Of a stretch of DNA of 26,937 nt, positions 9,811 to 26,577 are shown piece after piece. Location of the stretch: the IMG/VR virus record IMGVR_UViG_3300006754_000130, positions 1 to 26,937 of that record. One strand, given 5' to 3'. The translations under genes and the position numbers were made by a program. The notes below the pieces were generated by a model. It did not search any database. It was not told the DNA's origin and worked only from the letters and a program-made list of their open reading frames with translations. Within the stretch, counting starts at the first letter, position 1; every line of letters begins with the position of its first letter. Source of the DNA: a virus.

Positions 9811-12800
9811 TTAGATTCTTTCCATCACTAATGTCCAATCCAAATCAGTAACCGATTCACTACCCGTTATATGTAGGGATAATGTCTCATCTGTAAAGGT
9901 GCTTGCACTTGCGTGAAATAAGTTTTCTACTAAGGGTCCTGTTTCAACACTAGCACTTATTATATGTAGACCACCACCCAAATTAACTTGAGAACCACTC
10001 GGGCCTATTGCAAAGGATGCCGTTACAGCTCCCGTGACTAAACTCATAGAAGATGATATAATCTTTCTTGCTATACTACCACTTCTAATCAAGGTATAGA
10101 AACTACCTGGATGAGTTATAGAAGGTGATTCTATCATACCACTTATAGTTTCTCTAAATCCCATTAAGGTATTATATGATGCTGAAGCTGCAGTGGATGC
10201 TGATATTGCTGTTGAAGATGATGGAATATTTGTTAAATTACTACCATCACCTTCATATGAACCACTAAACGAACCAGATAGTCCTTGAGCACTTGTATGT
10301 CCTGAATATGAACCACTAAACGAACCACTAACACCTGTAAATTCTGTTCCAGTTCTAACCACCGTTCCATCAACCGCTACAGTAGCACTTGCATTACCAT
10401 TATAGGTAAATGAACCTATACCTGTTCCATCACTTAAACTACCATTTAAACTATCAGCCACATCAGCTCTAATAGATTGAGATGAAGATACTGCGTTAGT
10501 TGCTGAACCATATAGATATGAACCACTACTAACATATATATCGTGCGTATGCAAGGATCCCGTCGTCTCAATTCTATCACCTGCACCATCACCAAAAATA
10601 GAATTACCTGTAATGGATAATCCATTAGCAACTAAATTATCTCCCGCCGTTATATTTCCGTCTGCCTGTATAGTGCCTGATGATGTTATGTTACCTGCAA
10701 CATCTAATACTTCTGAAGGACTGTAATGGTCATCACCAATTCCAACACCACCACCTCTAGCTACCAATTTTGCTGTTAAGCCATCTCCTGAACCACTATC
10801 TGCTAATTTAAGTGCGAAATACGATTTTACGCCTCCTGCACCAATATCTGATGTATCTGCTACAACTTCCAAAGTACCCATAGAGTTGTAATTACTACCA
10901 TTATACCCGTATGAGTTTAATTGCATAACACGAGTAAATGAATCAACAATAGTTGGTGTCTTTGCTGTTCCTTTAGAACGCCAGAACGACACATCCCCAC
11001 TATTATCTAGTTCATCGTGTATTCTAAACATAGCTGACGATGTTACAGAATTTTCAGTTTGATCTGGATGATTAACAACAGTAAATACTGCTGCCTGTGT
11101 TGTGCCACCAGTGAATGTTAAATGTCCCATATCATCGGCTGAACCGCTACCATTAAGAATTAACTGACCAGTAGCTGACTTAAAGAACATAGAACGGCTA
11201 ACTTCACCTGCCTTATGAACGAATAAATCACCACTACCACTTATATTGCCAGTAAAAGGTCTTGTTCCATCTGCTAAAATATATTGTGTATGGTCGTCAT
11301 CTGATAATCCACCTAATAAACTATGGTCTGATGCAGATGCTTCATTATTAGTTATTCTGGTTGATAATGAAGAACTATGAGCTATTATATCTACTCCATC
11401 TACCGTTCCCCCTACTGTAATATTAGTTCCTACATCTAACGATGCACTCATCTCTACCGAACCAGTAAATTCGTGTTTATCATCAGAAGTATCACCAAAC
11501 ATAGTTGAACCACTTGAGAAGCTTTGTGATAAATAAGTTACAGATGAACTAACGATATATTGCTGTGCAGTTAAATTACCTTCAACTGTTACATCACCTG
11601 CTGCTGTAATATTCCCATCAGTAGTTATATTACCTCCCGCATGTATGGTTCCAGATGTTGTTTGATTACCATCTACATCTAACACTTCATCAGGATAGTA
11701 ATTATTCTCACCTAAACCAATATTTCCATCTGATCTAACAATAAATCTTGTAGTTAGAGTATCTTCCGAACCACTTGCTGCTAATTTAAGTTGATATGCA
11801 CCTGCTACTCCACCTTCACCGATGTGATCAGCGGCAAACTCCGAGAATATTTCTTGTAAACCCATAGTATAATACTTACTACCATTATATCCATATGAGG
11901 TGAGACTCATTGCTCTATCAAATCCATCTACGGTAAGTGGAACTTTTGCTGTTCCTTTTGAACGAAAGAATGAAATATCTCCAGTACTATTCTCGTCATC
12001 GTGAATCCTAAACATCGCAGAAGATGTAAGTGAATTACCAGTATCGTCTGGGTGATTAACAACAGTAAATACTGCTGCCTGATTTGTCCCATTGGCCAAT
12101 GGTAAATGTCCCATATCGTCAGCTGAACCACTACCATTTAGGATTAGTTGGCCAGTTTCGGACTTAAAGTATAATGAGCGGCTAACTTCTCCAGCTTTAT
12201 GCACAAATAAATCTCCACTACCAGATATACCATTAGTATATAGGTCACCTGATTTAATTGTTACATCACCAGTTGTTTTATTAAATGTAAAATCACTTGA
12301 ACCTGATGTTGCCCCAGCATCTCTAAACTGAACCGCTGTAAGTGGGCCTCCAGGTGATGCTGATGCAGTTATACCTGTTAAATAAGTACCATCACCCGAA
12401 AATGAACCTGAGAACTTGGATGCTGATACTTGGCCTATATCACCTAAATTAATACTCGTATTCGGTAATATATCTGATCCTGAAATAGCACCTGATAATT
12501 TACCTGCCGCTACCAATCCTGTTATAGATAATGCTGTTCCTGATGCAGTATCATACTCTATACTATTCTGTAATTTAACCGAACCTGTGATTGTATGTAA
12601 ATCATTTATATCATTACCAAAATTAGTAGAGCCTGATTCACTTATTACCACCTTGTTAAATACTGAACTTGATATAGTTAAGTTTTCTATGTTTATATCA
12701 TCTTCTAATGCTACTGTTGCTGTTGAAGCACCTGTATATGTAAAATCTTGTATATTCTTACCATCAGTTAGTGCCTCACTTACTCCTACATTAGTTAAAC

Positions 12801-13362
12801 CACTACCATCTCCTACAAATGAACCGCTAATAGTAGAACCACTTATGATTGAACCACTAATAATATTACCATATATGGTTGTGGTTGCCATATCATAAGT
12901 TAAAGCACTACCATCTCCTACAAATGAACCGCTGATAACTGAACCACTAATGGTAGAACCACTAATAATACTAGCATGTATAGTGCCAGTAGTTAAGTTA
13001 CTACCTGATATATCACCCACTACATAGAACGATCCTGTAAATGCATGTATATCGTCAGCAGTATCACCGAACTTAGTTGAACCACTTTGATATATTACAC
13101 TAACATTAGTTAATTCGGTATTAAATTCTTGTGCAGTTATGGTTCCTGTTGCAGTTATATTACCATCTACATCTATAGCACCACTTATAGGAAAATCTCC
13201 TATCCAGTCACCACCAAAAGAACCACTAAGCCTCTTGTTTACCGTATCTATAACAACTACGGGGTTTTCATCTTTATCATAAAATATAATTAAATCTTCA
13301 AAGTCCTGTTTGGGCTTATAATACATTTTGTTTGATCTTAAATCAAGGCGTCTTAACTTCAT
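9811..13362 (-). CDS. Giant repetitive tail fibre / appendage protein
   Basis: The 1183-residue protein is extremely rich in Ser, Gly, Thr and Asp. Two motif families recur: ISGSFVGDGSxLT (near the N-terminus twice, then in variant forms to the C-terminal third) and SGSTxFGDxxDDxHxFTGS (four copies). Such repeats form trimeric beta-helical fibre shafts. Residues about 379-590 and 704-910 are an internal duplication. The C-terminus lacks an obvious endosialidase-type chaperone domain. The ATG has AAGGAG at 8 bases, located inside the preceding 41-codon frame, whose stop overlaps it (ATGA). It is probably the main host-recognition fibre or a head/neck appendage, given its place right after the capsid gene. 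Confidence 0.78.
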   Translation of the reverse strand: MKLRRLDLRSNKMYYKPKQDFEDLIIFYDKDENPVVVIDTVNKRLSGSFGGDWIGDFPISGAIDVDGNITATGTITAQEFNTELTNVSVIYQSGSTKFGDTADDIHAFTGSFYVVGDISGSNLTTGTIHASIISGSTISGSVISGSFVGDGSALTYDMATTTIYGNIISGSIISGSTISGSFVGDGSGLTNVGVSEALTDGKNIQDFTYTGASTATVALEDDINIENLTISSSVFNKVVISESGSTNFGNDINDLHTITGSVKLQNSIEYDTASGTALSITGLVAAGKLSGAISGSDILPNTSINLGDIGQVSASKFSGSFSGDGTYLTGITASASPGGPLTAVQFRDAGATSGSSDFTFNKTTGDVTIKSGDLYTNGISGSGDLFVHKAGEVSRSLYFKSETGQLILNGSGSADDMGHLPLANGTNQAAVFTVVNHPDDTGNSLTSSAMFRIHDDENSTGDISFFRSKGTAKVPLTVDGFDRAMSLTSYGYNGSKYYTMGLQEIFSEFAADHIGEGGVAGAYQLKLAASGSEDTLTTRFIVRSDGNIGLGENNYYPDEVLDVDGNQTTSGTIHAGGNITTDGNITAAGDVTVEGNLTAQQYIVSSSVTYLSQSFSSGSTMFGDTSDDKHEFTGSVEMSASLDVGTNITVGGTVDGVDIIAHSSSLSTRITNNEASASDHSLLGGLSDDDHTQYILADGTRPFTGNISGSGDLFVHKAGEVSRSMFFKSATGQLILNGSGSADDMGHLTFTGGTTQAAVFTVVNHPDQTENSVTSSAMFRIHDELDNSGDVSFWRSKGTAKTPTIVDSFTRVMQLNSYGYNGSNYNSMGTLEVVADTSDIGAGGVKSYFALKLADSGSGDGLTAKLVARGGGVGIGDDHYSPSEVLDVAGNITSSGTIQADGNITAGDNLVANGLSITGNSIFGDGAGDRIETTGSLHTHDIYVSSGSYLYGSATNAVSSSQSIRADVADSLNGSLSDGTGIGSFTYNGNASATVAVDGTVVRTGTEFTGVSGSFSGSYSGHTSAQGLSGSFSGSYEGDGSNLTNIPSSSTAISASTAASASYNTLMGFRETISGMIESPSITHPGSFYTLIRSGSIARKIISSSMSLVTGAVTASFAIGPSGSQVNLGGGLHIISASVETGPLVENLFHASASTFTDETLSLHITGSESVTDLDWTLVMERI
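10640..12235 (-). repeat. Internal duplication in the fibre gene (unit about 975 bp apart)
   Basis: Two segments of the fibre gene encode closely similar sequence. The first starts near 12225 (GISGSGDLFVHKAGEV) and the second near 11250 (NISGSGDLFVHKAGEV). Both run on through GQLILNGSGSADDMGHL, TSSAMFRIHD, RSKGTAK, SYGYNGS and EVLDV to DGNITA. Each copy covers about 200 residues, and the offset of about 325 residues includes a spacer with a SGSTMFGDTSDDKHEFTGSV unit. Divergence between copies is substantial, so the duplication is not recent, or it has been under diversifying selection. Confidence 0.8.
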
Positions 13363-18103: not shown

Positions 18104-18349
18104 TTAACTTTCTCCTAAATGCTCAAAATATGCGTCTAATACAGGCATAATACTTGATATAATTTCGTATTTATTCATTAATGTGTCTAACTTTTCGTGT
18201 AAAGTATTTAATACTATTATTCGTGATTCATTTTGCACAAATATATCTGCTAACAAATCGTTATTATTCTTTTGCATTTCAAGTATACCATTTAACTTAT
18301 CTTGAGTTATGTAATCGTCTAATTGTTCTATTATTTTTTGTTTATCCAT
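18104..18349 (-). CDS. Small unknown protein between large terminase and portal
   Basis: The 81-residue acidic, helical product (MDKQKIIEQLDDYITQDKLN at the start) begins at an ATG that overlaps the TAA of the large terminase (TAATG), with GGAG 8 bases upstream. An in-frame upstream start is rejected because it would lie inside the terminase and displace the SD. It is probably a coiled-coil peptide. The family is unknown. Confidence 0.65.
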   Translation of the reverse strand: MDKQKIIEQLDDYITQDKLNGILEMQKNNNDLLADIFVQNESRIIVLNTLHEKLDTLMNKYEIISSIMPVLDAYFEHLGES

Positions 18350-19578
18350 TATAGGTTCTCCGACCACTCCATACTTGTAATACCTACTTGTCCTACTGGA
18401 TGTCGGTATTCTACAGGATACATTGCTGCCTGTAAGGCGTGGGTTCTACCAGCGTATTCTTGTGATTTATCTATTCTACCATCTGGCTTTCTTAATACTT
18501 GTTCGCAATCTGATATTAATTCTTTACATTTCGGGTCAATAGTCATATTAATCTTTCCTTCGGCATCTTTTAATTTCCTATTCCAAGTGTTAATAAGTGC
18601 GTTATGGCTAGGGTGATAATTCCTTGTAATTACATTAAATCCTAAATCTCTTAATATCATATGGTCGCTCTGTTTTGCTGAAGTGCTCCTACTTTTGCCC
18701 GTTGGGTCTGGATAGACCTCTACTAAATCTGGATGTTGTTCTTTTAATCTACTGGCTAACTCCATAGTATTACTATTATGTAATCTTATCTCATCATAAT
18801 AATGTATATCTCCATTACCATACTCACAAGCTATCTCAGCGCTCATATAATCCACATTAAAATCAATGCCTGCATATTTAATGTAAGTTAATTCATCTGT
18901 AGATTTTATATGTGTTTCACGTTCAAAGTTATATGCTGCTCTACTTCCACCTAACGTCTCAAAGGAGGCCTCAAACTCCTGCCTGTATAAACGACCATCC
19001 ATATTTCTTTTAGTCTTTTCTATCTCAAGAGGATTAACAAAGTTAGACTCTACTGTCTTAAATTGCCAAGACCGATATTCTAAATCTTCGGTCAGGCCTC
19101 TTAAATAAATATCGTAGAAGTGATTAAATCCGTCTGGAGTTCCAATAAACATACTCTCACCTAATGTAGATGCCAAAGTGGGTAAAATGATTTCTTCCCA
19201 TACATGCGGTTTCATAAATGCGTATTCATCTAATACTACTTTTGATAAGCCAACGCCCCTCAAACTATCCTCGTTATCTGCACCTTTCAATGCTATCTCA
19301 CTCTTACTATTGGTAAATGTTACTGATAGTTCTGATTCATTTACCTTTGCATATGGGTGAGTTCCTAATACTCTTTTTATTATCGGCCAAGCAATAGTTT
19401 TTGCCATTCTATATGATGGAGCTATATACCATCTTCTCTCATATGGTTCTTGTTTTCCTTGTGTGAGCCACGATAGTGCCGCGTGTGTCTTCCCCCATCT
19501 CCTACCAGCAACTATAACTTTATATCGCGACGGGTGTTGTATTATTTCCTTAATCTGTGGAGTTATCTGCAGTTTCAT
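18349..19578 (-). CDS. terL: Terminase large subunit (ATPase-nuclease)
   Basis: The 409-residue protein has the ATPase domain with Walker A GRRWGKT (about residues 25-31), Walker B VVLDEYA (114-120) and a coupling motif FIGTPDG (144-150). The nuclease domain has the RNase-H-like acidic residues in GIDFNVD (D239) and VYPDPTGK (D291), followed by a C-terminal segment with GRTHALQAAM. It translocates DNA into the capsid and cuts concatemers. Its start overlaps the end of the small terminase by about 29 bases; I chose the ATG over the TTG just upstream. The length, about 410, is near the low end for this family. Confidence 0.92.
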   Translation of the reverse strand: MKLQITPQIKEIIQHPSRYKVIVAGRRWGKTHAALSWLTQGKQEPYERRWYIAPSYRMAKTIAWPIIKRVLGTHPYAKVNESELSVTFTNSKSEIALKGADNEDSLRGVGLSKVVLDEYAFMKPHVWEEIILPTLASTLGESMFIGTPDGFNHFYDIYLRGLTEDLEYRSWQFKTVESNFVNPLEIEKTKRNMDGRLYRQEFEASFETLGGSRAAYNFERETHIKSTDELTYIKYAGIDFNVDYMSAEIACEYGNGDIHYYDEIRLHNSNTMELASRLKEQHPDLVEVYPDPTGKSRSTSAKQSDHMILRDLGFNVITRNYHPSHNALINTWNRKLKDAEGKINMTIDPKCKELISDCEQVLRKPDGRIDKSQEYAGRTHALQAAMYPVEYRHPVGQVGITSMEWSENL

Positions 19579-19945
19579 CAAAATCCCATAATACTATCGG
19601 TTCAGGTTTATCTACAACTAAATCTATTGCTCGTTTATCTATATATACTCCTGCCATCTTTAATACATCTAATGCTGCCTTTCTTTTCTCTGCATCATAC
19701 ATAGTGTTTCTCATTATATCTACTACGGTTGCTGCAGCTTCAGGTGCTTTATCTTTTAAGAATTGCATAGTATCATCTAATATTTCTGTTTGTCTGCTCT
19801 GTATTTCTTCCATTAGATTAGCCTTATATCTTAAATATGTACTATATCCCATACCCAACTCTTTAGCAAACTCTTTTCCTTGTTGTCCTGGGGATTTTTT
19901 TAAGTAGGCGTTAATAAACTTGATTTCTTTTGGTTTTAATTTCAT
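19550..19945 (-). CDS. terS: Terminase small subunit
   Basis: The 131-residue protein has an N-terminal helix-turn-helix-like region (about 10-45: FINAYLKKSPGQQGKEFAKE and then LGMGYSTYLRYKANLM), typical of small terminases that recognise packaging sites. A helical middle (AATVVDIMRNTM...DAEKRKAALDVLKM) and an acidic tail follow. It is the first gene of the late operon and overlaps terL by about 29 bases. GAG-rich sequence (GAGAGTTGAG) directly precedes the ATG. No canonical promoter is visible in the 100 bases upstream on this strand. Confidence 0.72.
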   Translation of the reverse strand: MKLKPKEIKFINAYLKKSPGQQGKEFAKELGMGYSTYLRYKANLMEEIQSRQTEILDDTMQFLKDKAPEAAATVVDIMRNTMYDAEKRKAALDVLKMAGVYIDKRAIDLVVDKPEPIVLWDFDETADNSTD

Positions 19946-20002
19946 CTCAACTCTCTATATCTATCGTTATATCTATAAATAGTAAAATAATTAAAATAAA
20001 GC
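19946..20002. promoter_or_regulatory. Divergent spacer between late operon and early region
   Basis: This AT-rich spacer separates the small terminase start (minus) from the first early promoter (plus). On the minus strand it holds a run of GATATA-like repeats, which may belong to a late promoter, but no matching TTGACA-type element lies at proper distance, so phage- or activator-dependent late transcription is possible. Plus-strand A-tracts immediately before the first TTGACT could act as an UP element. Confidence 0.35.
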
Positions 20003-20032
20003 TTGACTTATATTAGCTTTTTGTCGTATAAT
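20003..20032 (+). promoter_or_regulatory. Early promoter P1
   Basis: The elements are TTGACT (20003-20008), an 18-base spacer, and TATAAT (20027-20032). It is the only copy of the six with a perfect -10 box. The upstream AT-rich tract ends in AAAGC. The predicted start is near 20039. The next ORF is short (39 aa), so the transcript would be nearly leaderless or act as RNA before reaching P2. Confidence 0.8.
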
Positions 20033-20037
20033 AGGGT

Positions 20038-20157
20038 ATGGAAATGAAGAAATATACAGATATTAAGTGTGATATAGGTCACAAATCATTAAAAATAATG
20101 AAAATAAAGCTTGACTTATATAGTATTTTATTCGTATATTTAGGTATAAAGAGATGA
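20038..20157 (+). CDS. 39-aa ORF reading through promoter P2
   Basis: The frame runs from the ATG at 20038 (a second in-frame ATG is at 20044) to a TGA at 20155-20157, which overlaps the ATG of the next gene (ATGA). The peptide starts MEMKKYTDIKCDIGHKSLKI, and its second half is encoded by the P2 promoter repeat itself. There is no SD, and the predicted transcription start is almost at the ATG, so any translation would be leaderless. It may be a real micropeptide, or a by-product of a small promoter-spanning transcript. Confidence 0.25.
   Translation: MEMKKYTDIKCDIGHKSLKIMKIKLDLYSILFVYLGIKR
20111..20140 (+). promoter_or_regulatory. Early promoter P2
   Basis: TTGACT (20111-20116), an 18-base spacer and TATATT (20135-20140), with the same AAAGC-TTGACTTATAT core as the other copies. 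It lies 108 bases downstream of P1 and just before the 67-aa gene, whose ATG would be about 7 bases from the transcription start. Confidence 0.8.
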
Positions 20158-20357
20158 GAAAAAATAAAGAAATGAAAAAACTAACAGAAGAACAAAAGAG
20201 TGAATACATAGGATTACTTGAGTTTGTAATGAAAAAATACCCAAATGATAACAAACGAACTTGGTTTGAAATATCAAGTGAGTGGTTTATGGATAACGGA
20301 CACGATATAGATGATGAAGAAATCATAGGTGTGGTATTTGATGAGATTAAAAAATGA
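20154..20357 (+). CDS. Small acidic early protein, unknown
   Basis: The 67-residue protein has a basic N-terminus, a helical middle (LTEEQKSEYIGLLEFVMKKY) and an acidic end (DIDDEEIIGVVFDEIKK). The first ATG (20154) is only about 7 bases from the expected start of the P2 transcript and has no SD; ATG 20172 (preceded by AAAGAA) is an alternative. The last codons overlap the repeat block that precedes P3 (GAGATTAAAAAATGA). Family unknown; small acidic phage early proteins often bind host proteins, but no target can be inferred. Confidence 0.55.
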   Translation: MRKNKEMKKLTEEQKSEYIGLLEFVMKKYPNDNKRTWFEISSEWFMDNGHDIDDEEIIGVVFDEIKK

Positions 20358-20375
20358 AAATAATTAAAAAAAAGC

Positions 20376-20405
20376 TTGACTTATATAGCTTTTTAGTTGT
20401 ATATT
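20376..20405 (+). promoter_or_regulatory. Early promoter P3
   Basis: TTGACT (20376-20381), an 18-base spacer and TATATT (20400-20405), followed by AAGGTATAAGAAATG. The upstream tract is AAAATAATTAAAA and an A-run. It drives the 193-aa gene. Confidence 0.85.
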
Positions 20406-20462
20406 AAGGTATAAGAAATGATAGATAAATATCAAAGTTGTAAAGAAAAAAAGGAGTCAATA

Positions 20463-21044
20463 ATGACTAAAAATGAAAAGATAGAATATTCCAGTTGGGA
20501 CGTCCCACTTGACGATATTAGTTCTTTGAATGAACCTATGGTCAATCTAGCAAGTATATCTAATGGTACAACCTACGACCTGGGTGATAAATTTAAATTA
20601 ACAGTTGAGCAAGAATGTAAATATACAAAATACAAAACTGATTCAGCTTCGTATGATTTTAAAGCATTCATTAAGAAATATAATCTTGGTCTGACCAATC
20701 TTAGAAAAAGATTCAGTTTCTGGGAATATAGGTTTATGAATATTAAAATTGAGGACAGGTTGTATAATACGGCCGTATGTGAATTTAACTATTGGGTTCG
20801 TAAAAGAAGTTACAGCTTTAGTGATACGCTTGTGAATGGTTTTACCTTTATCCCAGATCATATATCTAATTCTTTATCTGTTGAAACCAGTTTAGATTTA
20901 GATGAGGAACTCGATGAAGAAAATAGTAGAATGTTTCTCCCTAAAGTGGTTAGCTTGTTTGTCCAAGGTGGAGAAATGGCAAAGGAAGAAAACGACCTTC
21001 GCGAGGAAAAGTTATACAAATTATTAGATGGTGTTAAAATTTAA
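20463..21044 (+). CDS. Unknown 193-aa early protein
   Basis: I choose the ATG at 20463 because GGAG lies 7 bases upstream in the local consensus GGAGTcAATAATG. A longer in-frame start at 20418, directly at the P3 transcript start, would add 15 residues (MIDKYQSCKEKKESI) and may be a leader. Residues about 75-120 are basic and aromatic (LRKRFSFWEYRFMN, FNYWVRKRSYSF), and the C-terminus is acidic (DLDEELDEENSRM). The start MTKNEKI resembles MTNNEKI inside the next gene. No family is recognised. The 3' end (LLDGVKI and following bases) recurs as non-coding sequence near 22560. Confidence 0.7.
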   Translation: MTKNEKIEYSSWDVPLDDISSLNEPMVNLASISNGTTYDLGDKFKLTVEQECKYTKYKTDSASYDFKAFIKKYNLGLTNLRKRFSFWEYRFMNIKIEDRLYNTAVCEFNYWVRKRSYSFSDTLVNGFTFIPDHISNSLSVETSLDLDEELDEENSRMFLPKVVSLFVQGGEMAKEENDLREEKLYKLLDGVKI

Positions 21045-21090
21045 TGAGATTAAAAGATGAAAATAATTAAAATAAAGCTTGACTTATATA
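21022..21090 (+). repeat. Long direct repeat, copy 1 (gene end plus promoter P4 upstream part)
   Basis: From 21022 the bases encoding the last codons of the 193-aa gene continue through ATGAGATTAAAA and AAAATAATTAAAA into the P4 -35 region. The same sequence, with only a few mismatches, is at 22559-22627 before P6. In copy 2 the gene-end part is downstream of a different stop and is not coding. A shorter version, beginning at ATGAGATTAAAA, precedes P3 (from 20341). Confidence 0.8.
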
Positions 21091-21108
21091 CTATTTGTGT
21101 TGTATATT
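21079..21108 (+). promoter_or_regulatory. Early promoter P4
   Basis: TTGACT (21079-21084), an 18-base spacer and TATATT (21103-21108), followed by AAGGTATAAGAAATG as in P3 and P5. Predicted transcription start is near 21115, a few bases before the leader ATG. Confidence 0.85.
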
Positions 21109-21120
21109 AAGGTATAAGAA

Positions 21121-21156
21121 ATGATAGATAAACTTAAAAATAAGGAAATAATATGA
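21121..21156 (+). CDS. 11-codon leader ORF before the 123-aa gene
   Basis: The frame MIDKLKNKEII ends in TGA overlapping the next ATG (ATGA). The downstream gene's SD (AAGGA) is within its codons, so translating this leader would open or occlude that site. A near-identical leader (MRNKLKNKEII) precedes the next gene at the equivalent place. Conservation may reflect only repeat ancestry. Confidence 0.35.
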   Translation: MIDKLKNKEII

Positions 21157-21524
21157 GTTTAAGACCAAGAAAGCCCCTAATGGGTAAAAAGAAAATGACT
21201 AATAATGAAAAGATAGCTCTAAAGTGGGCTTTGGAAAATGTAAAACCTAATAATGATAATGGGCCGATGGTGTCTGATAAGTTTTGGACAGGATTAAGTG
21301 ATTCGGATAAAATAAGAAAAAGTACAGCATCTCTTTTCCTGAAATACGATATTATCATATTTTGGTTTGGTAAAGATGGTGCTATTTTAATTCATAAAAA
21401 TAACCCTTACCTAAGTTATACAGAAAAATATAATGAAGAAGGTGAACTATGGGGATGGGGTGAGTATAAGAGTACTGATGGGGAAAGTATGATGATGTTG
21501 CATACCCACACTACACTAAACTAA
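21153..21524 (+). CDS. Unknown 123-aa early protein with shared N-terminal segment
   Basis: The ATG at 21153 has AAGGA about 7 bases upstream. The N-terminus, MSLRPRKPLMGKKKM, is basic and nearly identical to that of the following gene, after which the two diverge completely. An internal ATG (21195) followed by TNNEKI resembles the start of the 193-aa protein, so the MSLRP segment may be a graft onto an older start. The rest is a small alpha/beta protein with an aromatic patch (IIFWFGKDGAILIHKNNPYL). No known family. Confidence 0.68.
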   Translation: MSLRPRKPLMGKKKMTNNEKIALKWALENVKPNNDNGPMVSDKFWTGLSDSDKIRKSTASLFLKYDIIIFWFGKDGAILIHKNNPYLSYTEKYNEEGELWGWGEYKSTDGESMMMLHTHTTLN

Positions 21525-21549
21525 AAAATGAAAATAATTAAAATAAAGC

Positions 21550-21579
21550 TTGACTTATATAGCTATTGTGTTGTATATT
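21550..21579 (+). promoter_or_regulatory. Early promoter P5
   Basis: TTGACT (21550-21555), an 18-base spacer and TATATT (21574-21579), followed by AAGGTATAAGAAATG. It serves the 197-aa gene and probably the following 107-aa gene. Confidence 0.85.
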
Positions 21580-21591
21580 AAGGTATAAGAA

Positions 21592-21627
21592 ATGAGAAAT
21601 AAACTTAAAAATAAGGAAATAATATGA
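21592..21627 (+). CDS. 11-codon leader ORF before the 197-aa gene
   Basis: The frame MRNKLKNKEII ends in TGA overlapping the ATG of the next gene, exactly as in the copy 471 bases upstream. It contains the downstream SD. Whether it is translated cannot be judged from sequence alone. Confidence 0.35.
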   Translation: MRNKLKNKEII

Positions 21628-22217
21628 GTTTAAGACCAATGAAACCCCTAATGGGTAAAAAGAAAATGAATAATAAAGATTCGTTGATTACACATACTAC
21701 AGCGACTGAACCACCAAAAACGATAGGTGAAAACTTAAAAGACAAAAGAGCTATCAATTTATCGGTAAAACTGAATGGTAAAACTGAATTACGGGCATTT
21801 TCAACATATACAAATAAAGTGTGTAAAGAACTTGAAGAACATAATGAGAAAACTGGAACTGATAGTCAAAAGGCTGGAGATTTATTAATTGAAAAGTTAA
21901 TACCAGAAGCTTTAGCATTGAAACATGATAGATTGGATTGGGATAAATCAAAAATGAGTAAGACCGAAGTTAATGGCGAAATAGTAAGTAATCTTGCTAA
22001 TGGGTTGTGTTCCTTTGTATTGTCTTGTCCATATTGGGAGGTATGGGATAAAATGGAAGATGTGGTTTTGAAAATAAATGTAGTAGTAGATGGTAATTGG
22101 ATTGGAATAAATCAAATAAAAGGTAATGAAGGATCGCAAATGATGATTGTAAGAAAAGGTATTGATAGTATCTATGAAAATGTAAAAAACGAACTTGATT
22201 TCGTAATGACGGCATAG
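21624..22217 (+). CDS. Unknown 197-aa early protein with shared N-terminal segment
   Basis: It starts MSLRPMKPLMGKKKM, like the preceding gene, with AAGGA about 7 bases before the ATG. The body (after residue 16) has a Thr/Pro-rich linker. A strand-helix section follows (RAINLSVKLNGKTELRAF, then a helix KVCKELEEHNEK), and then a helical stretch with DLLIEKLIPEALALKHDRL and an aromatic segment (CPYWEVWDKMEDVVLKINVV). I recognise no catalytic motif. It may share its promoter with the next gene, which starts 23 bases after its stop. Confidence 0.7.
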   Translation: MSLRPMKPLMGKKKMNNKDSLITHTTATEPPKTIGENLKDKRAINLSVKLNGKTELRAFSTYTNKVCKELEEHNEKTGTDSQKAGDLLIEKLIPEALALKHDRLDWDKSKMSKTEVNGEIVSNLANGLCSFVLSCPYWEVWDKMEDVVLKINVVVDGNWIGINQIKGNEGSQMMIVRKGIDSIYENVKNELDFVMTA

Positions 22218-22240
22218 AGCATGAAAGATTGGAGTTAATA

Positions 22241-22564
22241 ATGACTAAAAAAGAGTTAGAGTTAGTTAAACGTGAATTTCGTGATCACCTATGGAATGAT
22301 ATTAGTGGAGAAATAGATGCTAATACTGAAAGTTTTTATGATGGATGGGAGTTTTTGCTAAAGAAGAACGATTGGAAACTAATTGAACCAAAAATAGATT
22401 GGAATATAATAAAAATGTATATGGATAAAATAATGGATGAAAATGAAGATGATTTTATCGTGGAATATTCTAATTGTTATGAGAATGTGATGAATTATTT
22501 AATAAACTTAATGATGAATATGAAAAGATTGAAGATAGTGGATGGAAAGTTAGAAAAGTATTAG
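22241..22564 (+). CDS. Unknown 107-aa early protein, paralogue of the 23660 gene
   Basis: The ATG at 22241 has GGAG 6 bases upstream (GGAGTTAATAATG); an in-frame TTG at 22229 is rejected. The protein begins MTKKELELVKREF and shares DWKLIEPKIDWNIIK and a (D/E)-(D/Y)-(F/Y)-IVE(Y/F) segment with the 102-aa gene at 23660, so the two are paralogues with diverged middles. It is acidic and helical, of unknown function. Its TAG lies inside a repeat that elsewhere is the coding 3' end of the 193-aa gene. Confidence 0.68.
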   Translation: MTKKELELVKREFRDHLWNDISGEIDANTESFYDGWEFLLKKNDWKLIEPKIDWNIIKMYMDKIMDENEDDFIVEYSNCYENVMNYLINLMMNMKRLKIVDGKLEKY

Positions 22565-22627
22565 ATGGTGTTAAAATTTAATGAGATTAAAAAATGAAAA
22601 TAATTAAAAAAAAGCTTGACTTATATA
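22559..22627 (+). repeat. Long direct repeat, copy 2 (fossil gene end plus promoter P6 upstream part)
   Basis: Matches 21022-21090 with few mismatches. Here the codons for LDGVKI and stop lie out of frame behind the TAG of the 107-aa gene, so they are not part of a gene. This looks like the residue of a gene similar to the 193-aa gene that was replaced, leaving its 3' end and the following promoter. Confidence 0.8.
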
Positions 22628-22645
22628 CACTTTTGGTTGTATATT
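22616..22645 (+). promoter_or_regulatory. Early promoter P6
   Basis: TTGACT (22616-22621), an 18-base spacer and TATATT (22640-22645). The downstream part is the most diverged (AGAGTAACGAATTG), with no ATG at the usual place. It would drive the four following genes (222, 87, 102 and 58 aa). Confidence 0.85.
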
Positions 22646-22700
22646 AGAGTAACGAATTGATAAATAAATATCAAATTAACAAATAGAAAATGGAAATAAA

Positions 22701-23369
22701 ATGAAGAAAAAGAATAAAAGAACTCCCGAACAACAAAGAAAACTACGGGAGAAAAGAAGAACCAATAGGTTAAACAAAAACAAGGTAAGAGATGAGTTCC
22801 TGAAAAAGGAAGCATTAAAAAAAGCTCGTATGGAACAAAAAAATAAGAAGAATGGTGGAGTATTTGTTGGTTTTGATAGTGGGGATGAAATGCAACAATA
22901 CTTTGAAGAATTGAGAGAACAAAATAAAAAAGAGGCTGTTGCTGTAGTCAATTCTATGAACCCATCAAATATAGATATGACTATCCTTGAAAAACCTGAC
23001 TATGAATCAAAACACCATAATGTAAATGGTAAAAAGTTCCAAATGAATATGTGGTGTGGTGAGGATAAAAAACCAGTAAAGGTATTATCTCAAAAACCTA
23101 TGGTAAGTGGAAAAACACGAAAATTGATGTCAGTTGTCCAATTGTGGAGTGGGTATAAATCAGTATTACTTTGTATGACTAAAAATGAAATGGAGGACGC
23201 TAGAAAAGATTGGAGGGGAGATAAAGTAATACCTAAAAACGACTTGATTTCACAGACATTATCCTATCTTGGTTTGAACTCACGAAGTAATACACAACTT
23301 TACTTTTGTAAGGAGGTCGCAAGTGAAGATTATGATGGGTTTAGTAATGTATGGAGTGTTTGGGATTAA
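22701..23369 (+). CDS. Unknown 222-aa early protein with very basic N-terminus
   Basis: The first 50 residues are mostly Lys and Arg (for example KKKNKRTPEQQRKLREKRRT), suggesting nucleic-acid binding. A helical acidic segment follows (DEMQQYFEELREQNKKE), and the rest looks globular (GKKFQMNMWCGEDKKPVKVL, LMSVVQLWSGYKSVLLCMT). The ATG has GGAA 4-5 bases upstream, a weaker SD than its neighbours. It is the first gene behind P6. No family is recognised. Confidence 0.68.
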   Translation: MKKKNKRTPEQQRKLREKRRTNRLNKNKVRDEFLKKEALKKARMEQKNKKNGGVFVGFDSGDEMQQYFEELREQNKKEAVAVVNSMNPSNIDMTILEKPDYESKHHNVNGKKFQMNMWCGEDKKPVKVLSQKPMVSGKTRKLMSVVQLWSGYKSVLLCMTKNEMEDARKDWRGDKVIPKNDLISQTLSYLGLNSRSNTQLYFCKEVASEDYDGFSNVWSVWD

Positions 23370-23403
23370 AATGAATAATAACAAACAAAAAAAGGAGTTA
23401 ATA

Positions 23404-23667
23404 ATGGCTAAAAAACTGAAAGACGGCGATATATGGGTAAGACACCATAAAGGAAAAAGAGAAGATTGGAAGAAATCTTCTCGTATAGATTTTAATGGTG
23501 TGATGATTGTTATAGACACCGATGATATAGAGATGAGGAAAATGTTTGGTGATTATTTACTTGATATGTTTTCTCAATTTCTATCTAAATCCTTGATAGA
23601 TGAATGGAACACTTATTTAGAAGAAGAAAAACAAATTAAAGAAATGGAGGAAATGGAAGATGACTAA
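23404..23667 (+). CDS. Unknown 87-aa early protein
   Basis: The ATG at 23404 has GGAG in the context GGAGTTAATAATGGCT, the same leader as at 22241, so upstream in-frame starts are rejected. The protein has a basic N-terminal half (MAKKLKDGDIWVRHHKGKRE), a short strand (GVMIVIDTDDI) and a Glu-rich helix at the end. The stop is overlapped by the ATG of the next gene. Unknown function. Confidence 0.65.
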   Translation: MAKKLKDGDIWVRHHKGKREDWKKSSRIDFNGVMIVIDTDDIEMRKMFGDYLLDMFSQFLSKSLIDEWNTYLEEEKQIKEMEEMEDD

Positions 23668-23968
23668 AAAAGAGTTAGAGTTAGTTAAACGTGAATTGAA
23701 TGATTTGGGATTTACAGGAACGTATGGAAAATTCTGGGGTGGTAAAGCTGTTAGAGGTTATTTTGGAGACGATTGGAAACTAATTGAACCTAAAATAGAT
23801 TGGAATATAATAAAACAACTCACAGATAAAGTAAGAAATTGGGATTTTGATGAATGGGGTAAAATCAAAAGAGAAGATGAAAAAGATTATATCGTAGAAT
23901 TTGATAAACGTTTTAATAATGTGATGGATTATTTACATAAACTTAAAGAAGAAGTTAATAATGACTAA
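23660..23968 (+). CDS. Unknown 102-aa early protein, paralogue of the 22241 gene
   Basis: It begins MTKKELELVKREL, as does the 107-aa protein at 22241, and shares GDDWKLIEPKIDWNIIK and a DYIVEF segment, so the pair arose by duplication. The coding DNA of the first 13 codons is almost identical in the two genes. It overlaps the previous gene by 8 bases and the next by 8 bases; GGAGGAAATGGAAG before the ATG supplies an SD. It is acidic and helical, with no known family. Confidence 0.68.
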   Translation: MTKKELELVKRELNDLGFTGTYGKFWGGKAVRGYFGDDWKLIEPKIDWNIIKQLTDKVRNWDFDEWGKIKREDEKDYIVEFDKRFNNVMDYLHKLKEEVNND

Positions 23969-24137
23969 AAATAAAACCTATTCAATTAGTTTTGATTTAC
24001 AATCCAACGATGATAATAAATATCTAGAGGAGTACCCGCACCTAAAAACCACTAATGGTATAAAGGGTGAAATAAAGGGTTGGTTGGAAGATTTAGGTTT
24101 TAATGTAATAGGTCTTAAAATTAAAGAAATTAAGTAA
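23961..24137 (+). CDS. Unknown 58-aa protein, last gene of the early operon
   Basis: The ATG at 23961 overlaps the stop of the 102-aa gene, and the frame runs 58 codons (start MTKNKTYSISFDLQSNDDNK). The pattern strand, helix (GEIKGWLEDLGF), strand (NVIGLKIKEIK) suggests a tiny folded alpha/beta protein. Its start (MTKNK) follows the same AAGTTAATAATGACTAAAAA leader used elsewhere in the region. Its TAA overlaps the stop of the convergent minus-strand gene by several bases. Confidence 0.6.
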   Translation: MTKNKTYSISFDLQSNDDNKYLEEYPHLKTTNGIKGEIKGWLEDLGFNVIGLKIKEIK

Positions 24138-24498
24138 GTTTCGTTACTTTTGGAAGAACTATTTTAGTATGATCTATCTCAGGTAGTTCTTCCTCTATAT
24201 CTTCTTCGTCTATTGATGAAGAAATCAATGTATCTATCTGGTCTTTGATTGATAGAACGATTCCCTTTGCAAACTCTCTATACTGATTAAAGGATATTTC
24301 TTCTTTCTTTCCCATCTTAATCAATTTAGTAATCTTTACTCCAACATTTAACCCACCCTCAAATGCAATAAGTACCATATCTGGTTGCTGAAACCCTAAC
24401 TCATATTTTTCACTAAAACTTGTGTATTCTGGTATATAATGAAATAAACTCTCTATATCCAACTCTTTCTTTTTAACACTAAAATATTTTACACTCAT
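24130..24498 (-). CDS. Unknown 122-aa acidic protein
   Basis: The 122-residue product is of mixed alpha/beta type with a very acidic patch (SSSIDEEDIEEELPEIDHTK) near the C-terminus. The start lies one base after the stop of the preceding 121-aa gene, so the two form a pair. Its stop region overlaps the end of the convergent early operon (24135-24137). No motif or family is recognised. Confidence 0.65.
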   Translation of the reverse strand: MSVKYFSVKKKELDIESLFHYIPEYTSFSEKYELGFQQPDMVLIAFEGGLNVGVKITKLIKMGKKEEISFNQYREFAKGIVLSIKDQIDTLISSSIDEEDIEEELPEIDHTKIVLPKVTKLT

Positions 24499-24499
24499 T

Positions 24500-24865
24500 T
24501 TATAGTTTCACTTGGCCTTTATTCTTCTTTTTTAATACATCTCTTACAGATTTTTCTTTCTTTTTTCCATTTTTATCGGCTGCCGAAATAGTTGCAGTAA
24601 TTGCACCTAATACGATAAAGACATTTTCGGCCTCAAAATAGGTAGTATTATTACCCGTCTTAAAGAAATCTGAATGAACTGATGTAAATGTTTTTTTCTT
24701 ACCTACCTTCATAGGTATTAGTAATACTCTATCTTTATCTGGAGTTTTTAAATGGCCATTATATTCTAACTCTATGATATCAGGTCTATATACTACTAAA
24801 TTTACTTTTAATTGTTTACCTAACTTTACTATCTGTGCCTTCATACTTTTCCAAGTTAGTCTCAT
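24500..24865 (-). CDS. Unknown 121-aa basic protein
   Basis: The 121-residue Lys-rich product starts at an ATG that overlaps the stop of the GIY-YIG gene (ATGA), with AAGGA 5 bases upstream. The middle has a beta-type core (RVLLIPMKVGKKKTFTSVHS, then ENVFIVLGAITATIS) and the tail is very basic (KKEKSVRDVLKKKNKGQVKL). It may bind nucleic acid, but no family is recognised. Confidence 0.65.
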   Translation of the reverse strand: MRLTWKSMKAQIVKLGKQLKVNLVVYRPDIIELEYNGHLKTPDKDRVLLIPMKVGKKKTFTSVHSDFFKTGNNTTYFEAENVFIVLGAITATISAADKNGKKKEKSVRDVLKKKNKGQVKL

Positions 24866-25434
24866 AATAATCCTTCTCGCTTTTTTCTATGATATTCCTG
24901 TTGTGATTTTCTCATCTTAGCTCTACTTTCCTCTGTATGTTTTCGTCCTGTCCAATAATTACCCTTTTCCGCCTTTGTCTTACTAATCTTTTCTCTGGAC
25001 TCTTTCGTATGGTGTTTGCCATACATAGGGTTATTTTCACCAGAAACGTCTGCATGGTATTTCTTTATATTCTTTCTATGCTCTTCCGACTTTGGTTTCC
25101 CTTTTGATGCAATGGAAAGTTTCTCTTTAACTAACTCTGATATAATATATTCACGATCACCACCTGTTTGCATATTATATCCATTATTAAAACTATCATA
25201 GTGATCTGTATAATAAGCTTCCATCTCTGAAAGCTCTTCTCTATCCTTGCAAGTATGTAATACTTCCCAAGTAAAACTACTCTCACCATACTTTCTTAAC
25301 GCGTTATGAAACAGTGCCTCTGATCCTGTTTTTACTGCATATTGATGTTTGATTCTACGATGATTTAGTGGTTGTTTCGTAGCACCGATATAACATTTGC
25401 CATTCTGTAAGTTAGTTGCTTTATATACTACCAT
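24862..25434 (-). CDS. GIY-YIG homing-type endonuclease with NUMOD3-like DNA-binding motifs
   Basis: The 190-residue protein starts with a GIY-YIG nuclease domain: VYK (3-5, in the GIY place), CYIGAT (14-19, YIG at 15-17), HRR (25-27), EMEAYYTDHY with E72 the likely metal-binding Glu, and NGYN (N87). After it lie three NUMOD3-like units, GKPKSEEHRKNI (about 112-123), YGKHHTKESREKI (138-150) and TGRKHTEESRAKM (162-174), DNA-contact modules of free-standing and intron-encoded homing nucleases. No intron is visible, so it seems free-standing (SegA-like in plan). It has no good SD. It would cut DNA site-specifically and spread by repair. Confidence 0.88.
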   Translation of the reverse strand: MVVYKATNLQNGKCYIGATKQPLNHRRIKHQYAVKTGSEALFHNALRKYGESSFTWEVLHTCKDREELSEMEAYYTDHYDSFNNGYNMQTGGDREYIISELVKEKLSIASKGKPKSEEHRKNIKKYHADVSGENNPMYGKHHTKESREKISKTKAEKGNYWTGRKHTEESRAKMRKSQQEYHRKKREGLL

Positions 25435-25454
25435 ATTGTATAAATATCATTTAA

Positions 25455-26354
25455 TTATGCGAAATTAAACTTTGTTTTTCTCTTCTTTTTATTTGCACAA
25501 TCTACACAAGAACAATTCCTCTTATTAGCAAGATTTCTTCTACTATTAGTTTTATATTTTATCTCTTTTTTACAATCAGGACAATTCCGTATATTGTTAG
25601 TACCCCGTTGCATAACTACTGGTTTACTTTTAGTTTTCTTTATCTCTATTTTACACTCCCCACAAGTAAATTTATGCTTTCTAGCATGTGCAAATGCATT
25701 CTTAAAGTTTCTAAAAGTTTTTTCTTTATTACATAGCTTACATTTAACAGTTGGGATTAAATATTTACCATCTCCCAATGTAGCTCTATTCTTATTAACA
25801 CAATCATCACATAAAGTATCGTAGATTACTGCTTGCCTCAATTCTTCATTAGTTAAATACATTAAAATATTGCATTGAGAACAAGAAAACTTATTATGAA
25901 CTGGTGAATCTTTTAGTTCATTTTTTATCTGTTTCCTAATAATTCTTTTTTGAGCACCACACTTTTTACAAAGTTGTTTTCTCCTGAGTGAAACTAGATA
26001 ACTATTTTGTGATGAGTATTTCCTTGACTCACCACACGAAGGACAACTATGAGTTAGTTGTAAATCTTTGTAATCAATATAATATTTTAATCGCTTAAAA
26101 TCTATATCTGATAGTTTTTGTAAATCTTTCATATCATTAGTTTTAATAGAGTTTAATTTCTCCAATATCTTTTCGTGGTCTTCTATAGCAAATGCTAACC
26201 AATCATCAATCCACCCCTGCACATCTTTACCAACGTTAAAGTTTATTCTATTAAAATATTTATGTAGCGATACACTAATTAATAATGGTATATTCCCATC
26301 TTGTCTAAAATATTCTATCACTCTTCTAAATATTTTTCTGTTTTCTGCAATCAT
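25455..26354 (-). CDS. Four-finger zinc-ribbon protein, unknown function
   Basis: The start at 26354 has GGAG 5 bases upstream (GGTGGGAGTTAAAATG); an in-frame GTG just before it would fall inside that SD. The 299-residue protein has a helical N-terminal 95 residues. Then come four tandem CxxC-(20-22)-CxxC units: C104/107 with C129/132, C158/161 with C182/185, C205/208 with C231/234, and C258/261 with C283/286. Linkers are Lys/Arg-rich. This is a zinc-ribbon or treble-clef array likely to bind nucleic acid. No nuclease residues are seen. It lies beside a GIY-YIG gene, so a mobile-element or target-recognition role is conceivable. Confidence 0.72.
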   Translation of the reverse strand: MIAENRKIFRRVIEYFRQDGNIPLLISVSLHKYFNRINFNVGKDVQGWIDDWLAFAIEDHEKILEKLNSIKTNDMKDLQKLSDIDFKRLKYYIDYKDLQLTHSCPSCGESRKYSSQNSYLVSLRRKQLCKKCGAQKRIIRKQIKNELKDSPVHNKFSCSQCNILMYLTNEELRQAVIYDTLCDDCVNKNRATLGDGKYLIPTVKCKLCNKEKTFRNFKNAFAHARKHKFTCGECKIEIKKTKSKPVVMQRGTNNIRNCPDCKKEIKYKTNSRRNLANKRNCSCVDCANKKKRKTKFNFA

Positions 26355-26382
26355 TTTAACTCCCACCTCTACCTCTCTCTTG

Positions 26383-26577
26383 TTAATATATATAAATATA
26401 TATGTATATACTCATAAATATCTGTTTAAGAAACTTACTCTTATTTCTTTTTGGTTTACAATTCTTTTCTATTAGATTTTCCACAACCTTATACATCTTC
26501 ATACCATTTTCTTTGCAATGTTCTTTTAACATATCCCTATATTCACTTCTTATTTTTATATCTGCCAACTTATCCAT
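26383..26577 (-). CDS. Small possible ribbon-helix-helix protein with TA-repeat tail
   Basis: The 64-residue protein starts MDKLADIKIRSEYRDMLKEH and continues with a helix (CKENGMKMYKVVENLIEKN). A short strand followed by two helices is the plan of ribbon-helix-helix DNA-binding proteins, but it is too short to prove. The end (SIYIYIYIY) is encoded by a TA-dinucleotide run near 26390-26405 and is probably not functional. Its ATG overlaps the end of the methyltransferase gene (TATGGATAA). GGAAGGA lies about 12 bases upstream. Confidence 0.5.
   Translation of the reverse strand: MDKLADIKIRSEYRDMLKEHCKENGMKMYKVVENLIEKNCKPKRNKSKFLKQIFMSIYIYIYIY

Follow-up and report, generated by a model that had tools for sequence, protein, structure and literature searches.

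We describe here six copies of one promoter cassette, ahead of short runs of unknown genes, in a genome fragment of a marine tailed virus of bacteria (IMG/VR record IMGVR_UViG_3300006754_000130, positions 1 to 26,937; hereinafter the window, that is, the whole stretch of 26,937 nucleotides (nt) that was analysed). Probably, albeit with some reservations considered below, these copies are strong early promoters of the sigma-70 type, used by the host RNA polymerase, that double as short patches of homology for the exchange of gene modules. The case is built on an array whose copy number exceeds chance, on the turnover of genes among otherwise closely related arrays, and on junctions that fall within the cassette.

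The six-copy promoter array

The 16-mer AAAGCTTGACTTATAT is present in the window in six exact copies, all on the plus strand and together spanning 19998-22626; the record holds no further copies, and the pattern read backwards has zero matches in the window. When up to three mismatches are allowed, the count stays at six, compared with a mean of 1.0 and a maximum of 4 in shuffled sequences (none of 100 shuffles reaches six). In each copy, TTGACT is followed, after a spacer of 18 nt, by TATAAT (copy 1) or TATATT (copies 2-6), a pair of hexamers within the 16-18 nt spacing of sigma-70-type promoters, and an A-rich tract lies upstream in all six. The array of promoters delineated in the first-pass annotation is thereby confirmed in its positions:

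19984..20046, plus strand: cassette 1; A-rich tract, core 19998-20013, TTGACT 20003-20008, TATAAT 20027-20032, ATG 20044
20044-20157, plus strand: open reading frame (ORF) of cassette 1, 37 codons, starting with the ATG at 20044
20092..20156, plus strand: cassette 2; core 20106-20121, TTGACT 20111, TATATT ending at 20140, ATG 20154
20357..20420, plus strand: cassette 3; core 20371-20386, TTGACT 20376, TATATT ending at 20405, ATG 20418
21060..21123, plus strand: cassette 4; core 21074-21089, TTGACT 21079, TATATT ending at 21108
21531..21594, plus strand: cassette 5; core 21545-21560, TTGACT 21550, TATATT ending at 21579; left parent of the L127 junction (see below)
22597..22659, plus strand: cassette 6; core 22611-22626, TTGACT 22616, TATATT ending at 22645; right parent of the L127 junction
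22657, plus strand: TTG at the usual start position of cassette 6

The repeated block exceeds the core, with a median homology of ~14 nt to its left and 28 nt to its right in non-orthologous pairs of copies. Near-identity of the downstream sequence up to an ATG, originally claimed for four of the six copies, holds well in copies 3-5 and more loosely in copy 2, but not in copies 1 and 6, which diverge (AGGGTATGGAAATG, AGAGTAACGAATTG). Similarly, the 16-mer, described as invariant, is so within this contig but not among its relatives, which carry the variants AAAGCTTGACTTGTAT, AAGGCTTGACTTATAT and AGTGCTTGACTTATAT. In one of these relatives, L129, four of the seven cassettes (1, 2, 3 and 5) have TTGTAT in place of TTATAT, a pattern that hints at an evening-out of copies within the genome.

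A start codon is located 10-13 nt past the -10 hexamer in 10 of the 11 non-redundant copies of the clade, compared with 1.0 expected. If transcription begins 6-8 nt past the -10 hexamer, the leader would consist of a few bases only, and the positions of the start codons suggest near-leaderless translation with coupling. The ATG of cassette 3 shares its reading frame with the start at 20463, which has an AAAGGAG ribosome site. The leaders of cassettes 4 and 5 each contain a mini-ORF of 11 codons, MIDKLKNKEII (21121-21156) and MRNKLKNKEII (21592-21627), respectively, and in both cases the TGA overlaps the ATG of the gene that follows (at 21153 and 21624).

Exchange of gene modules at the cassettes

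Relatives of the window were collected by similarity of the large terminase subunit (TerL), and all sequences compared are metagenome contigs. Relatives with TerL at 98-100% identity carry 3-7 copies of the cassette at the same location (six in the window, five in L127, seven in L129, five in L132 and four in L133), and no such array was found in the examined stretches of more distant TerL relatives (~46-56% identity). The structural genes of the window are co-linear with those of the relatives, at 92-99.8% DNA identity over up to 12.5 kb. From the small terminase subunit (TerS) to the convergent gene at 24130, the relatives differ almost completely across the array, and the right edge of this variable zone is sharp (~24117-24130). 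Thus, within the stretches compared, gene turnover takes place mainly in the 4-kb promoter array: most of the small genes behind the cassettes have no counterpart in the other arrays. L118 and L128 break off within the array; as far as they reach, they match the window. A search for the core in related contigs, the check proposed along with the initial prediction, accordingly finds the cassette conserved in relatives, with its copies at the borders of gene units.

Two exchange junctions can be traced to the base. L127 is a near-identical sister of the window that differs by one module: the two sequences are identical through the upstream side of cassette 5 and identical again from cassette 6, with the switch inside AAAGCTTGACTTATATA, and L127 does not have the 1066-nt module that the window carries between these two cassettes. 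At this junction, the homology extends past the core to ~39 nt, of which one is mismatched. L132 and L133, which come from two metagenomes, are identical over at least 1000 nt and diverge directly after the same core in cassette 4. Hence both junctions lie inside the same 17 nt, with identical flanks and unrelated sequence past it; at the junctions, 14-17 nt are shared exactly. The segments involved in the window are as follows:

21545..21561, plus strand: 17-nt crossover interval AAAGCTTGACTTATATA; L127 matches cassette 5 upstream of it and cassette 6 downstream
21051..21208, plus strand: graft block of 158 nt, 92% identical to 21522-21679; cassette, leader and ~19 codons of two otherwise different genes

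Furthermore, the boundaries of blast matches coincide with cassettes, both for the segment shared by the window and L129 (21060-21624) and for the left flank, which ends at 20166-20204. The counterpart of the gene at 21153 (66% identical) is found in L129 between other cassettes, at a different position in the array. The graft block is a third trace: because it carries the cassette, the leader and ~19 codons, the 197-amino-acid (aa) protein encoded at 21624 opens with the N-terminus of its 123-aa neighbour. The genes ahead of cassettes 4 and 6 have a common end, a further trace of exchange.

A promoter dialect of mostly marine phages

At least 118 IMG/VR stretches contain the 16-mer, and removal of near-duplicates leaves 80 sites. 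TATATT or TATAAT is located at exactly 18 nt past TTGACT in 55 of the 80 and at 17 nt in three, spacers of 13-16 or 19-22 nt are found at none of them, and an A-rich tract precedes most. The core is, then, the -35 side of a promoter type common to many otherwise unrelated, mostly marine phages, and the same extended promoter is present singly in many unrelated phage contigs that have no array. When promoters are located via the leader sequence alone, the letters after TTGACTT can differ. Among 257 Gb of bacterial and archaeal genomes, the strict promoter pattern has only two matches, one in a contig of a Pelagibacter metagenome-assembled genome (MAG) and the other ahead of a tRNA-like sequence in a Flavobacteriales MAG; a looser form yielded nothing besides the seed in ~490 proteobacterial genomes, and isolate phages, including those of Vibrio, Rheinheimera, Pseudoalteromonas, Serratia and Erwinia, gave partial matches only. 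Given that this promoter type is widespread in IMG/VR phages and nearly absent from bacterial genomes, we consider it a dialect of phage promoters.

These findings bear on the earlier suggestion that conservation beyond the needs of a sigma-70 promoter could mark an operator or a recombination target. Because the same extension, with the exact 18-nt spacing, marks promoters of many unrelated phages, neither is called for, and no separate operator is needed; what survives of the recombination target is the role of a homology patch. Judging from the sequences, the extended conservation is adequately explained by promoter function combined with shared descent.

Could the dialect connect unrelated phages as well? 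Cassettes of promoter and leader that are 77-90% identical to those of the window are also present in pieces of contigs with which it has no protein in common, and an 80.9-kb contig without a related terminase carries, at G024:C1:56500-76400 (L255), ~20 promoters of the dialect on both strands, in most cases one for each small gene. On these two grounds, one might speculate, although we think it rather doubtful, that the dialect (AAAGCTTGACTTRTAT-N13-TATATT) is a common adaptor by means of which unrelated phages that infect one host group take early genes from a joint pool through homology splicing. No gene movement between unrelated lineages was seen among the contigs compared.

Several additional features accompany the dialect promoters elsewhere. 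The reverse-strand set of L255 has an additional common stretch, TTAAGTGCCGTATATTATAGTA, and one of its promoter copies contains an inverted repeat, TGTCTGACTgCC...GGTAGTCAGACA, across the -10 hexamer. In L263, L267 and L270, a conserved stretch, GAATTTAGCCCGACCCATTAGATTGGGATAAGATTGAAAAG, follows the cassette in place of an obvious gene start and is possibly a small RNA. In L002 and L016, GGGGATGCCATGGTTTCGATTG after the 16-mer site resembles the 5' end of tmRNA, although ARAGORN reports none.

Promoters as probable homology patches and the alternatives

We envisage the following scenario for the array. The promoter dialect, which comprises an A-rich UP-like tract, GCTTGACTTATAT, the 18-nt spacer and TATATT, would be read by the host RNA polymerase at the onset of infection; transcription is accordingly predicted to start from the cassettes, and the genes of the array are presumably early. 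The start codon near the -10 hexamer would serve either as the gene's own start or as that of a mini-ORF that overlaps the gene or leads into it. Since the block of promoter and leader hardly differs from module to module, it would provide a patch of sequence identity as well. Recombination of the homologous or annealing kind between copies, whether these lie in the same genome or in two co-infecting phages, could then delete, insert, move or replace whole modules. Such exchange is unlikely to harm expression since every product retains a promoter, a leader and a gene. The simplest account is ordinary homologous or single-strand-annealing recombination by a putative recombination enzyme. The swapping may be selected for, or else it may be a by-product of the need for many strong promoters.

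Several considerations weigh against this scenario. Bacterial genomes almost entirely lack this promoter type, and its recognition by the host RNA polymerase is deduced from the match to the sigma-70 consensus; the distinct arrays known are four, and the base-level junctions are two; and selection against junctions within genes would likewise favour junctions in intergenic promoters. One alternative notion is that the copies are promoters only, duplicated and kept by promoter function, with turnover via illegitimate recombination and selection and no role for homology. The single occurrence of the extended promoter in array-free, unrelated phages is compatible with this notion. Nevertheless, we hold it to be improbable because both base-level junctions lie within the core of 17 nt and are flanked on the two sides by perfectly identical sequence, and because the blast boundaries of the shared segments (21060-21624 and 20166-20204) meet cassettes as well. 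Still less probable, in our estimate, is that the core is also an operator, with AAAGCTTGACTTATAT bound by a repressor or activator of the phage that would place all modules under joint control. The conservation does extend past the hexamers, with one core upstream of all modules, and another phage, L255, has the inverted repeat across the -10 hexamer of one promoter; yet one common regulator is not to be expected in the unrelated phages that share the extension at exactly 18 nt, the longest dyad in the core is AAGCTT, the relatives alter the core (TTGTAT, AGTG, AAGG), and no regulator was recognised among the array genes.

That two junctions fall in the same short core might also suggest site-specific recombination, in which a phage recombinase would target the 16-17-nt core and shuffle modules in the manner of integron or invertase cassettes. 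This seems very improbable: no recombinase was recognised among the proteins scanned in the window, which is a 27-kb fragment, the core is a plain promoter in phages without arrays, all copies have a single orientation, and the ~39 nt of homology between the window and L127, with its one mismatch, is sufficient for homologous recombination. Finally, given that every sequence is a metagenome contig and the cassettes are repeats, the module differences could be thought of as assembly mis-joins, an explanation to which we give hardly any credence. An assembly jump is unlikely because the exact stretches shared at the junctions are shorter than usual assembly k-mers; furthermore, four contigs (L127, L118, L128 and the window) agree across the left part, and the arrays of L129, L132 and L133 differ although the conserved borders on either side are the same.

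Comparison with known elements

The scenario of promoters that serve as exchange seams brings to mind the promoter early stem-loops (PeSLs) of T4-like myoviruses, in which an early promoter and a stem-loop are found at module seams (described in PMC4503421). To the extent of that description, the two systems are alike in that an early-type promoter is repeated between small genes of a plastic region and modules are shuffled with the element at the seams: by sequence, all six copies here contain such a promoter, the geometry of which is matched at the 55 of 80 outside sites, and the element borders exchanged modules. The stem-loop, however, was not found at the copies tested. No plus-strand terminator-like site is present from 19945 to 24130, and for cassettes 3-6, neither the upstream regions nor those spanning the cassettes surpass shuffled sequences in folding (z from -0.91 to 0.67); the leader of copy 3 folds at z -3.1, forming two weak hairpins (-8.6 kcal/mol in total) without a T run. 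Neither does the phage belong to the T4-like myoviruses, its TerL being nearest to those of large T5/SSU5-type siphoviruses. For these two reasons, we do not file the array under PeSLs. In addition, the promoter here is TTGACT-18-TATATT, with GC before the -35 hexamer and TATAT after it, whereas the T4 early type is GTTTAC; furthermore, the core is used across unrelated phages, and the start codon 10-13 nt past the -10 hexamer is part of the cassette. The prediction of an element analogous to PeSLs and apparently different from them has therefore held up.

The T4-like early promoters that precede novel ORFs, as described in PMC1524935, are similar in having an A-rich UP-like tract and a strong shared promoter along with many orphan ORFs; their sequence is different, and exchange junctions are not mapped to the promoter in that description. 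The lambdoid morons described in the same paper resemble our modules in that a gene with its own promoter is inserted among conserved genes, whereas the window array has many serial modules, homology at the promoter and no terminator. The modules do not qualify as morons (units of promoter, gene and terminator) given that the array contains no plus-strand terminator-like sites. The 17-bp dyad repeat of Cluster O mycobacteriophages (PMC4351075) is also a short repeat, and in two examples the loss of a module is attributed to recombination of two copies; that repeat, however, is palindromic, mostly not at promoters and partly within genes, whereas the repeat in the window is a promoter at every copy. 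The SAS/ESAS of Cluster K, in the portion of PMC3203893 that deals with them, is likewise a short repeat just before genes of different families, and its authors suggest a possible role in homologous recombination; the SAS (GGGATAGGAGCCC) is tied to the translation start rather than to a promoter, and that portion shows no junctions. By this comparison, both mycobacteriophage repeats appear to be weaker parallels than the PeSLs.

Genes and layout of the window

The 27-kb window consists of head and tail genes on the minus strand, the plus-strand array, which reaches 24137, and a second minus-strand block. Downstream of each cassette lie between one and four small orphan genes as a short unit. 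The genes of the array and its borders are as follows:

18349..19581, minus strand: terminase large subunit, ~41% identical to large T5/SSU5-type siphoviruses; query for finding relatives
19550..19945, minus strand: terminase small subunit; reads away from the array, of which it is the conserved left border
20154..20357, plus strand: 67-aa gene of module 2; matches no family above the cut-off
20463..21044, plus strand: 193-aa gene of module 3; an orphan except within the clade
21153..21524, plus strand: module 4 gene, 123 aa; its 66% identical relative lies elsewhere in the L129 array
21624..22217, plus strand: 197-aa gene of module 5, missing from L127; IMG/VR yielded no relative
22241..22564, plus strand: 107 aa, the second module 5 gene; 44% identical to its paralogue at 23660-23968
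22701..23369, plus strand: module 6 gene, 222 aa; elsewhere only in L127/L011
23323..24137, plus strand: three further small genes of module 6 (23323-23667, 23660-23968 and 23961-24137), reaching the right edge of the variable zone
24130..24498, minus strand: convergent gene, conserved right border; protein 97% identical to L247/L129 and 93% to L133

The array genes had been called unrecognised, and Pfam and PHROGs indeed give no family above the cut-off for those in the window, nor a regulator among them; among the relatives, there is one weak match to an HNH endonuclease. The two module genes tested (20463-21044 and 22701-23369) have no relatives in isolate phages, and structure models of module genes (mean pLDDT 32 and 52) are too poor for a search. 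The paralogues in modules 5 and 6 (22241-22564 and 23660-23968) are 93-98% identical at the DNA level over some stretches. A GIY-YIG-type homing endonuclease is encoded at 24862-25434, within the conserved right flank, and the similarity of L133 to the window is lost just after it (25434-26567). At 9811-13362, a protein of 1183 aa has an internal repeat of ~600 nt (10649-11245 and 11624-12229, 71% identical).

Implications

The junctions described here are base-level evidence, from outside the T4-like phages, of a promoter as the seam of gene exchange. The finding bears on the way in which phages accumulate fast-evolving orphan early genes. In practical terms, the dialect offers, for uncultured marine phages, a simple, searchable promoter signature of early genes, which often serve host takeover or counter-defence.

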